Positions 20,289-47,095 of a stretch of 64,000 nucleotides of DNA are shown one piece after another. The notes beneath the pieces are model-generated. The model ran no database searches. It saw nothing but the letters and a program-made list of their open reading frames with translations, and was not told where the DNA came from. A program made the position numbers and the translations under genes. How positions within the stretch are numbered: position 1 is the stretch's first letter; every line of letters starts with the position of its first letter. The DNA comes from Polynucleobacter sp. MWH-UH2A (GTDB lineage: Bacteria > Pseudomonadota > Gammaproteobacteria > Burkholderiales > Burkholderiaceae). The stretch covers positions 1,860,001-1,924,000 of the forward strand of contig NZ_CP061321.1 of the NCBI RefSeq assembly GCF_018687195.1. Direction: 5' to 3'.

Positions 20289-20323
20289 AAGTGGATTGTA
20301 GATTCGCAGATTAGAATGTGCTT

Positions 20324-21793
20324 ATGAGCAAATTGTTACTTTTCATCCTAGCCACCCTAACTGGTGGGACTTTGTTGCTGGGATCGGCTCAGGCTCAAAC
20401 AGATGAGACCTCAACTGGGCAAGCCGTCTTTGAAGTCTTAGCCTCTGAAATTGCGCTACAGCGGGGAGAAGCAGGTCTTGCCTACAACACCTATTTGGAG
20501 ATGGCTCGGCAATACAAAGACCCTCGCCTAGCTCAACGAGCGATGGAAATTGGGATAGCAGGCGGCTCGCCTGAGCTCGCATTACAGGCCGCGAAAGTTT
20601 GGGATAGCCTAGCGCCTGCTTCCGATACCAAACCTAAAGAAGTATTTATCACCCTTCTAATTCTCAATAATCGCTGGTCTGATGCTGTAAAGCCTGCAGT
20701 TTCGCTACTACGCCAACAGACGCCTGCTCAACAAGAAAACACACTGTTACAACTACAAGCATTGCTAAGCAAAGCCAAGGACGAATCCGAGGCTTTACGC
20801 GCTTTCTATGAAATCACATCGAACGGAAGAGCAAGCCCCAAAAATTTAAGTTTGCTCTATACCTATGCCATGTCAGCAGAGAAAGCGGGTCGAGTGGATG
20901 TTATGGAAAAAACTTTGCGAGAAATTTTGCGCAAAAGTCCTAATGATGTGAATGCTCTCAATGCACTCGGTTACTCTCTTGCTGATCGCAATACCAAATT
21001 ACCAGAAGCATTTGCCCTCATCAGCAAAGCGCATCAACTTTCACCACAAGATGCTTTCATATTAGATAGCTTAGGCTGGGTTAATTTTCGCCTTGGTAAA
21101 AATGCACTTGCTTTAGAACAGTTGCAGCAAGCATTTCGCATGAAACCCGAAGCGGATATTGCTGCACATACTGGTGAAGTGCTCTGGTCAATGGGACGAC
21201 AGGCTGAAGCAGAGGCTATGTGGCAAGAGGGGCAGAAATTAGATGCCAACAATGCCACTCTTCAAGAAACGTTAAAACGACTAAAGCCTGACTGGTCAAG
21301 CCCAACTCAAGCTCTCAAGGGCTCATGGGATGGACGATTTGCCGTCAAAGTTACTGGCCTGACTGATGCCCAAAATCAAGGGGGCTCTGGTGGTTTTACG
21401 CTTGTTCAAGACAATCTCAAAGATACTCTCGAGATTCGCAACCCTGTCGGCGGCGCGATTGCAAAAATTACCATCACTCCCGGAGAAGCCACTCTAGAGC
21501 GCGACGGTCAAATCACAAGCGCAATTGATGCAGACACCTTAGTGCAAAACACATTAGGACTCCCATTGCCAGCAAGAGGTTTATCTAATTGGCTAAGAGG
21601 AGAAACCCGGCCAGGCAGCGAAGCAAGTGTTGAGAGAAACAACAAGGGGCAAGTCAGCGAAATTCGTCAAGATGGATGGAATTTACGTTATAGCTGGAGT
21701 GATCAAAATCGCCTGGATAAATTAACAATGACCCGCAGCTCTAACATTGGATCGATTGATATTCGACTTGTGTTTGATCAAGCAAATGAGTGA
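20324..21793 (+). CDS. TPR protein fused to a C-terminal LolB domain
   Basis: The 489-residue protein has a cleavable signal peptide (~1-23, ending GSAQAQ), a helical TPR region (~30-320, e.g. NALNALGYSLADRNTKLPEAFA), and a C-terminal LolB domain (~335-489). The LolB part shows the ARGLSNWLRGETRPG and QDGWNLRYSW signatures. LolB inserts lipoproteins into the outer membrane and is normally a lipoprotein itself. In relatives the TPR protein and lolB are, as I recall, separate adjacent genes before ispE; here they are one frame. The whole protein has no cysteine, so it cannot be lipidated. The ATG at 20324 is preferred over a GTG at 20318. The last 8 bases overlap ispE. Confidence 0.9.
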   Translation: MSKLLLFILATLTGGTLLLGSAQAQTDETSTGQAVFEVLASEIALQRGEAGLAYNTYLEMARQYKDPRLAQRAMEIGIAGGSPELALQAAKVWDSLAPASDTKPKEVFITLLILNNRWSDAVKPAVSLLRQQTPAQQENTLLQLQALLSKAKDESEALRAFYEITSNGRASPKNLSLLYTYAMSAEKAGRVDVMEKTLREILRKSPNDVNALNALGYSLADRNTKLPEAFALISKAHQLSPQDAFILDSLGWVNFRLGKNALALEQLQQAFRMKPEADIAAHTGEVLWSMGRQAEAEAMWQEGQKLDANNATLQETLKRLKPDWSSPTQALKGSWDGRFAVKVTGLTDAQNQGGSGGFTLVQDNLKDTLEIRNPVGGAIAKITITPGEATLERDGQITSAIDADTLVQNTLGLPLPARGLSNWLRGETRPGSEASVERNNKGQVSEIRQDGWNLRYSWSDQNRLDKLTMTRSSNIGSIDIRLVFDQANE

Positions 21794-45661: not shown

Positions 45662-47095
45662 ATGCGTAAATTTCTGAAGAACTTTGCACTGATTGCCATT
45701 GGTTTGATTGCCGGCGTAGCCGCTACCATTCAGCTATCCGCAACTGCGCAACAAGGTGGACAGCTGCCTTTAGATGAGCTGCGCACACTCTCTAATGTGT
45801 TTGCTCAAATCAAACGTGAATACGTAGAGCCTATTGAAGATAAGCAGCTCTTAACAGATGCAGTCAAAGGCATGGTCAGCAGTCTTGATCCACACTCCAC
45901 TTTCTTGGATAAAAAAGACTTTGCAGAGATGCAAGAGCAAACCTCTGGGAAATTCGCAGGACTCGGAATTGAAATCACTTCCGAAGATGGCGTAGTAAAA
46001 GTACTCAATCCAATTGAAGATAGTCCAGCTGCACGCGCAGGCTTGCAAGCGGGAGATTTAATCACTCGCTTAGATGACAAACCTGTTCGTGGCATGTCTC
46101 TTGATAAAGCAGTGCGCACTATGCGTGGTACCCCTGGTACAAAAATCACCTTAACGGTTTATCGCAAAAGTGAGGAACGTAGCTTTCCAGTAACGATTAC
46201 TCGCGCTGAAATCAAAGTGCAATCCGTCAAAGCCAAAATTCTTGACAACGACATCGCTTGGGTTCGCATTACTAGCTTTCAAGAACGTACGGTTCCAGAT
46301 CTTGCTAAAAAGCTGACCGATCTCGCCAATCAAGATCCAAAATTGAAGGGCATTATTTTGGATCTGCGCAATAACGGTGGCGGCCTATTACAAGGTGCCG
46401 TTGGGGTTGCCGCAGCATTCTTGCCTGCAGACTCTGTGATTGTCTCTACCAAGGGTCAGGCCCCTGATTCCAAGCAGGTCTTTAACGCCACTCCGGCAAT
46501 GTACCGCCTCAGTGAACCAGGTGATCCATTGGCAAGCGTTCCTCCCATCTTCAAGAAATTGCCGATGGTCGTTCTCGTCAATGCGTATTCAGCATCAGCC
46601 TCTGAAATTGTTGCCGGTGCCTTACAAGATTACAAACGGGCAACCATTATTGGCAAAACCACTTTTGGTAAAGGCTCTGTACAAACTGTTCGTCCATTAA
46701 CAAATGACTCGGCCCTCAAAATCACAACCGCCTATTACTACACACCAAGTGGCAAGTCTATTCAGGCGTTTGGCATTAAACCAGATATTCCAGTTGATCA
46801 AAATAAAGATGGCGATCCTGATGATGTGTTGACTACGCGCGAGATTGATAGCGAAAAACACTTACGCAATAAGCAATCTGCCGAAGATAAGTTAATTAAA
46901 GATCGCGAAGAACGACGTCTTCAGGAACTTCAGCGCATTGAAGATAAGAATGCTAAGAAAACTCCTGAGGAAAAAGAAAAGGATAAAAACAAGAAGCCTG
47001 TTGAATTGGGCAGCGCTGACGATTTCATGCTAACGCAAGCAGTGGCATTTATTAATGGTCAACCCGTTAAACGCTCGTCATCTAAGCTTGAATAG
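45662..47095 (+). CDS. Carboxy-terminal processing peptidase (S41)
   Basis: The 477-residue protein has an N-terminal signal/anchor helix (~9-28), a PDZ domain (~90-170, KFAGLGIEITSEDG...SPAARAGLQAGDLI) and an S41 catalytic domain. The Ser/Lys dyad is in NAYSASASEIVAGAL and GKTTFGKGSVQT. The Lys/Glu-rich region (~400-455, many EEKEKDKNKK-type residues) is charged and likely disordered. It is a periplasmic CtpA/Prc-type protease; the substrate is not known. Confidence 0.95.
   Translation: MRKFLKNFALIAIGLIAGVAATIQLSATAQQGGQLPLDELRTLSNVFAQIKREYVEPIEDKQLLTDAVKGMVSSLDPHSTFLDKKDFAEMQEQTSGKFAGLGIEITSEDGVVKVLNPIEDSPAARAGLQAGDLITRLDDKPVRGMSLDKAVRTMRGTPGTKITLTVYRKSEERSFPVTITRAEIKVQSVKAKILDNDIAWVRITSFQERTVPDLAKKLTDLANQDPKLKGIILDLRNNGGGLLQGAVGVAAAFLPADSVIVSTKGQAPDSKQVFNATPAMYRLSEPGDPLASVPPIFKKLPMVVLVNAYSASASEIVAGALQDYKRATIIGKTTFGKGSVQTVRPLTNDSALKITTAYYYTPSGKSIQAFGIKPDIPVDQNKDGDPDDVLTTREIDSEKHLRNKQSAEDKLIKDREERRLQELQRIEDKNAKKTPEEKEKDKNKKPVELGSADDFMLTQAVAFINGQPVKRSSSKLE

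Follow-up and report, generated by a model that had tools for sequence, protein, structure and literature searches.

Whether LolB can work without a lipid anchor, when carried at the C-terminal end of another protein, is the question raised by the gene at positions 20324-21793 of the window, the 64,000-nucleotide stretch of Polynucleobacter sp. MWH-UH2A DNA analysed here. LolB accepts the lipoproteins that LolA hands over and inserts them into the outer membrane, while LbcA is the adaptor of the periplasmic protease CtpA. LolB is itself a lipoprotein, and a review argues that its anchor secures one-way delivery to the right membrane (PMC11784454). The gene is a genuine LbcA-LolB fusion that occurs throughout Polynucleobacter, a genus of freshwater bacteria. 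Its product holds the domains of both families yet is not a lipoprotein, which the definitions of both require, and for that reason it is counted as a member of neither.

One open reading frame with two domains

The host genome is one closed contig of 2,021,093 bases. According to the ORF list and to reading of the sequence, the gene is a single uninterrupted frame on the + strand, running from the ATG at 20324 to a stop codon that ends at 21793 and encoding 489 residues. An in-frame GTG lies two codons 5' of this ATG, at 20318. The features referred to below are the following.

20324..21793, + strand: lbcA-lolB fusion gene, 489 aa plus stop, one open frame
20324..20395, + strand: type I-like signal peptide, residues 1-24, cysteine-free, cut likely after SAQA (read from the sequence)
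20414..20611, + strand: N-terminal helices, residues 31-96, matching the part of LbcA responsible for CtpA binding and activation
20630..21283, + strand: shortened LbcA TPR superhelix, residues 103-320
21290..21322, + strand: fast-changing linker, residues 323-333, in place of the LolB signal peptide, cysteine and tether
21323..21784, + strand: LolB domain without N-terminal cysteine, residues 334-487
21446..21448, + strand: codon of Val375, which aligns with Leu68 of E. coli LolB, the tip residue of the protruding loop
21786..22670, + strand: ispE, overlapping the end of the fusion gene
45662..47095, + strand: ctpA, probable partner protease, 477 aa

The first-pass annotation of this DNA had described a LolB domain at about residues 335-489, behind a TPR region in the same frame, with the signatures SNWLRG and QDGWNLRYSW and a place just upstream of ispE. 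All of this was borne out. PF03550 aligned with residues 336-486 at 91.8 bits (cut-off 23.7), several Pfam TPR models matched N-terminal of it, both signatures were found in the ORF, and the ispE ATG, read from the sequence at 21786, comes directly after. The NCBIfam lolB equivalog TIGR00548 scored 43.5 bits on the fusion, below its cut-off of 59.6. An AlphaFold2 model built from an alignment of 45 genus members (mean pLDDT 86.2, pTM 0.75) is helical from about residue 31 to 320, with a beta fold at 332-484.

Distribution of the fusion

PF03550 matched 144 of the 151 Polynucleobacter genomes, once in each; the seven genomes without a match are 66-85% complete, and all 117 genomes with at least 90% completeness and at most 5% contamination have exactly one. 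Nearly all matches (140/144) lie in open frames of 455-546 aa. Among the four shorter frames, three begin at a contig end yet keep LbcA sequence in frame, and one is cut inside LolB. Eighty of the 144 loci were read, the window's own included. LbcA and LolB share one ORF in 79 of them, and the 80th (L131) has LolB alone, at a contig end. The comparison across the genus that the first-pass annotation had proposed thus yielded the same arrangement wherever both domains could be read. That the gene is an assembly or frameshift artefact is of negligible probability, and sequencing error is ruled out with it, because the 79 fused loci come from different genomes, closed as well as draft.

Outside the genus, 40 loci were read, 20 belonging to the same family and the other 20 to different families within the order. 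Both genes are present in 39, always as two ORFs on the same strand, while L065 has no LbcA match. Gap distances between the genes were left unused, the start-codon guess being plainly wrong for some GC-rich frames. A profile made from the fusion alignment was searched in 249 genomes of the family, 399 of the order and 276 of the class, and among the matches listed none outside the genus spans both domains. Fused proteins rank first among the listed matches, and the furthest that any match outside the genus extends, read through stops, is position 379 of 496; a remote fusion that is weakly similar to LbcA could rank below the matches listed.

The first-pass annotation had also asked for a second lolB. 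The host genome has a single PF03550 match, and in the genus as a whole none of the 144 genomes that match has a second one. A very divergent second LolB may nevertheless occur in Polynucleobacter, since PF03550 misses the divergent LolB of the family that we label f17. Two genomes of other genera in the same family (G168 and G178, 95-99% complete) have a match somewhere along the fusion profile and no PF03550 match, and either a divergent LolB as in f17 or a true loss is possible there. Two genomes of genus g8 (G157 and G216, 1.1-1.2 Mb, 99% complete) have neither match.

Loss of the lipid anchor

The 489 residues of the window's protein contain no cysteine, so that, as the first-pass annotation had stated, lipidation of this protein is impossible; its reading of a type I-like signal peptide also agrees with ours. 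To describe the genus we counted over 76 fusion proteins, leaving out three of the 79 fused loci (L130, L135 and L136) whose N-terminus is lost at contig ends; L096, whose last residues are cut off by a contig end, was kept. A loose test finds a type I-like motif at the expected place in every one of the 76. Thirty-nine are cysteine-free, L096 among them, and a looser earlier parse of 73 proteins likewise gave 39. A lipobox-like tetrapeptide occurs within the first 70 residues of seven of the 76 and is not conserved, and four of the 76 have a cysteine beyond residue 45. Lipidation is thus absent as a genus trait but may be possible in a few species.

Every LolB of the 40 loci outside the genus has a lipobox, 38 of them found by script and two (L059 and L060) with LAGC further upstream. 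The situation of LbcA is different. Of 19 LbcA ORFs from other genera of the same family, one was marked by the filtered script as having a lipobox (L064, in sequence upstream of the gene), and the unfiltered pattern flagged also those of L057 and L068, which we judged unconvincing; LbcA is therefore mostly unlipidated in this family. In the other families, a lipobox was flagged in 9 of 20 loci, one of which (L092) is doubtful. Across Burkholderiales (L055-L094) the LbcA lipobox is patchy, even though the name of the protein designates it a lipoprotein.

The first-pass annotation had offered, as one option, that the TPR part anchors LolB. This gains little from the sequences, given the scarcity of LbcA lipoboxes in the family. 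A protein tether is a related alternative, in which the LbcA half would bind a partner protein at the outer membrane and so tether LolB there without lipid. TPR superhelices do bind proteins, and LbcA of Pseudomonas aeruginosa recruits CtpA to the outer membrane (PMC6050968). The tether in that species, however, is described as LbcA's own lipid (PMC8764530), which is absent here, and convincing lipoboxes are also wanting in LbcA of the family's other genera. We regard such a tether as possible but doubtful; it would refine the explanation that we prefer, an unanchored working LolB, and does not exclude it.

The LolB half

Structural searches with the model placed LolB chains at the top: 8cm1 (Z 18.9, rmsd 2.4, 162 residues aligned), 8orn (Z 18.8) and 1iwm (Z 18.4, rmsd 2.5, 163 residues aligned). 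Both halves of the fusion are under strong purifying selection, with a median dN/dS of 0.036 for LolB and 0.040 for LbcA (40 pairs, dS 0.2-1.2). Mean pairwise identity among the 76 proteins is 0.61 and 0.62 in the two domains and 0.25 in the linker.

In E. coli, the LolB loop with Leu68 at its tip is reported to be needed for delivery, a hydrophobic tip not being universal, as the LolB of Xanthomonas has Arg there (PMC10368991). Alignments with E. coli LolB, and with 1iwm and its L68 variants, place Val375 at this position, which is V, M, I, L or F in all 76 fusion proteins. The equivalent of E. coli Trp117 is Trp in all 76 as well. The equivalent of Trp52 is Leu in every one of them and Trp in 35 of the 40 LolBs of other genera; the W52P variant of E. 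coli LolB is impaired in lipid receptor activity (PMC10368991). This change tells against an unaltered LolB.

Other parts of the pathway are in place. LolA was found in 31/31 genus genomes examined, a LolC/E-type protein above cut-off in 20/21 and BamD in 21/21. The BamD of the host genome has the lipobox LGGC, and with BamD present and so equipped, outer-membrane lipoproteins remain to be delivered. They could in principle be delivered by something else. The fused domain might no longer be an insertase and might, for example, present lipoproteins to CtpA, while a bifunctional LolA, as in Caulobacter, or a divergent LolB does the delivery. The uniform loss of the Trp52 equivalent would fit such a change, bifunctional LolA is known to exist (PMC11784454), and real LolBs escaped PF03550 in 4/4 f17 genomes, so that a second one could be hidden. 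Selection on the LolB half, however, is as strong as that on LbcA, the hydrophobic tip and Trp117 are kept without exception, and none of the 144 genomes shows a second PF03550 match. We consider this alternative unlikely. The LolB half probably still acts like a LolB.

The LbcA half and CtpA

What the first-pass annotation missed is the identity of the TPR part; its reading held as to the fusion, the absence of lipidation and of a second PF03550 LolB, and the place of the gene. In a phmmer search against the PDB, residues 89-321 matched P. aeruginosa LbcA, PA4667 (8sxe and 7rqf), with an E-value of about 6e-47; in 8sxe_C the match covers residues 311-540 at 146 bits. A second, weaker stretch (21 bits) runs from residue 33 onward and aligns with the N-terminal helices of LbcA in 8sxe, which are helical in the model too. 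By these matches the TPR half is LbcA. Structure comparison of LbcA 7rqf with the fusion model gave Z 18.6 (rmsd 9.7, 290 residues), but unrelated TPR proteins reach Z 16-17 in the same list, so the identification rests on sequence. As lbcA adjoins lolB in the other loci read, the fusion joins two neighbouring genes.

Taken together, the two phmmer stretches suggest the absence of about 235 middle-TPR residues relative to P. aeruginosa LbcA, and the model has about six helix pairs against 11 TPRs in that protein. With about half of the TPRs gone, adaptor function is uncertain. The N-terminal region bears on this point. CtpA binding in P. aeruginosa requires the first helix of LbcA (PMC8764530), and charged changes at Leu57 or Val87 abolish CtpA activity (PMC11021448). 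The equivalent of Leu57 is Leu39 in 76/76 fusion proteins and that of Val87 is residue 69, which is L, I, V or M in 76/76, the offset having been deduced from requiring both to match. An S41 protease is present in 31/31 genus genomes examined. That of the window, at 45662-47095, has P. aeruginosa CtpA as its best PDB match (chain 7rpq, E 2.7e-109). CtpA residue Ala50, at the LbcA interface, is apparently Ser in this protease, with numbering deduced from spacing.

The linker raises a further alternative, that periplasmic cleavage of the chain, whether by CtpA or by some other protease, yields a separate LbcA and a soluble LolB. A fast-changing linker is compatible with this, as is the slow degradation of LbcA reported in the presence of wild-type CtpA (PMC11021448). 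The same stretch, however, is too poorly conserved to suggest that a cut site has been kept, and we think cleavage very unlikely.

Family f17 and the order of events

Loss of LolB from f17, for which the lack of PF03550 matches (0/4 genomes) might be taken, was ruled out. In nine of the ten f17 loci read (L240-L242 and L244-L249, the tenth being L243), lbcA is followed by a separate, divergent LolB homologue and then by ispE. In hhalign comparisons the f17 LolB set gave probabilities of 97.6% with LolB of other genera, 85.9% with Polynucleobacter LolB and 0.1% with an LbcA control. Eight of nine f17 LolBs have the lipobox pattern, and the ninth (L242) reads GFGC. Claims of LolB absence based on Pfam would therefore be wrong in such small Burkholderiales genomes.

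The LbcA of f17 is similarly short to the LbcA half in Polynucleobacter. Among its nine visible signal peptides, seven have no lipobox-like stretch, and the other two read LMAC (L244) and ALSC (L248), each followed by more hydrophobic residues; that of L246 is cut. In a midpoint-rooted LbcA tree of 67 sequences, the 15 Polynucleobacter and 10 f17 sequences are sister groups with support of 0.966. The f17 arrangement, a short LbcA mostly without lipobox next to a separate LolB with one, looks like the pre-fusion state, in which a short unlipidated LbcA would have stood beside a lipidated LolB. The IspE tree dates nothing, because it holds only 32 sequences and f17 is not one clade in it.

Short LbcAs also occur elsewhere. 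Those of L047, L051, L052 and L061-L063 (genera g21 and g22) are ORFs of 313-396 aa, far below the length of about 600 aa that is usual in the rest of the order. In the LbcA tree they branch separately from both Polynucleobacter and f17, which suggests repeated shortening.

A LolB probably at work without its own anchor

The explanation that we favour, with a probability of about 0.7, is that the protein is a working LolB without a lipid anchor, exported within the chain of a CtpA adaptor. In the ancestor of Polynucleobacter, LbcA would have lost its stop codon, and LolB its signal peptide together with the lipidated cysteine, probably in one deletion, which would have brought about the fusion and the loss of the anchor together. 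LbcA, which in related bacteria mostly has a type I-like signal peptide, would thereby have become the front half, and the product would reach the periplasm by export, with no lipid to anchor it. In that compartment the LolB domain would still take lipoproteins from LolA and insert them by means of its hydrophobic loop, and the LbcA half would still bind CtpA. Export, insertase activity, cell location, CtpA binding and the origin in a single deletion are what we infer from the sequence comparisons above.

A bolder proposal, which we put forward tentatively and hold to be rather improbable, is that the two halves form a coupled unit, an anchorless insertase within the CtpA adaptor, where newly arriving outer-membrane lipoproteins would, at one and the same site, be either inserted or passed on to the protease. 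If so, its cargo would include peptidoglycan hydrolases of the kind that CtpA degrades in P. aeruginosa. Lipoprotein delivery would then be linked with the turnover of cell-wall hydrolases, and direction towards the outer membrane would be independent of an anchored LolB. In P. aeruginosa, lbcA lies in an operon with lolB and ipk (PMC6050968), and the two genes are also adjacent in 39 of the 40 Burkholderiales loci read outside the genus. With this adjacency, the fusion hints that a functional link between lipoprotein insertion and CtpA-controlled wall turnover may extend beyond Polynucleobacter.

Comparison with known systems

The surprise of a LolB without anchor is tempered by earlier reports on engineered proteins. 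The lipid anchor of E. coli LolB is described as not required, and LolB1 of Flavobacterium johnsoniae with C17G as giving full complementation (PMC11885536). A review notes that several lipoproteins function when engineered to be soluble, with a LolB study as its first citation, and that these forms rely on multicopy plasmids (PMC11784454). Among the open PMC papers listed in our searches, none describes, by title or abstract, an LbcA-LolB or LolB-TPR fusion or a natural, genus-wide anchorless LolB. The novelty is thus a natural LolB of this kind, found throughout a genus, function of anchorless LolB having already been reported for engineered forms. A genus with many cultured strains that keeps LolB under strong selection without an anchor makes the need for the anchor testable outside plasmid expression.

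Four systems can be set beside the fusion. With E. coli LolB (b1209; PF03550; 1iwm) it shares the fold, the hydrophobic loop tip, Trp117 and the place of the gene before ispE; it differs in having no lipobox, lipidated cysteine or free N-terminus, in its position C-terminal on LbcA and in the change of Trp52 to Leu. With LbcA/PA4667 (7rqf and 8sxe) it shares, by sequence, the N-terminal adaptor helices and the C-terminal TPRs, as well as the place before lolB and the presence of CtpA in the genome, whereas about 235 middle-TPR residues are apparently missing, the lipidation cysteine is absent and LolB occupies the C-terminus.

The bifunctional LolA of Caulobacter and an engineered LolA-LolB chimera, as presented in a review (PMC11784454), likewise deliver lipoproteins without an anchored LolB. 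There, however, LolA does both jobs, while Polynucleobacter has a separate lolA and keeps its LolB domain in another protein. The fourth system is the engineered soluble LolB of E. coli and the C17G form of F. johnsoniae LolB1, which share with the fusion a LolB without lipid (PMC11885536). Those are laboratory mutants, expressed in trans in F. johnsoniae (PMC11885536), whereas the Polynucleobacter case is natural, stands at the lolB locus itself and extends across the genus.
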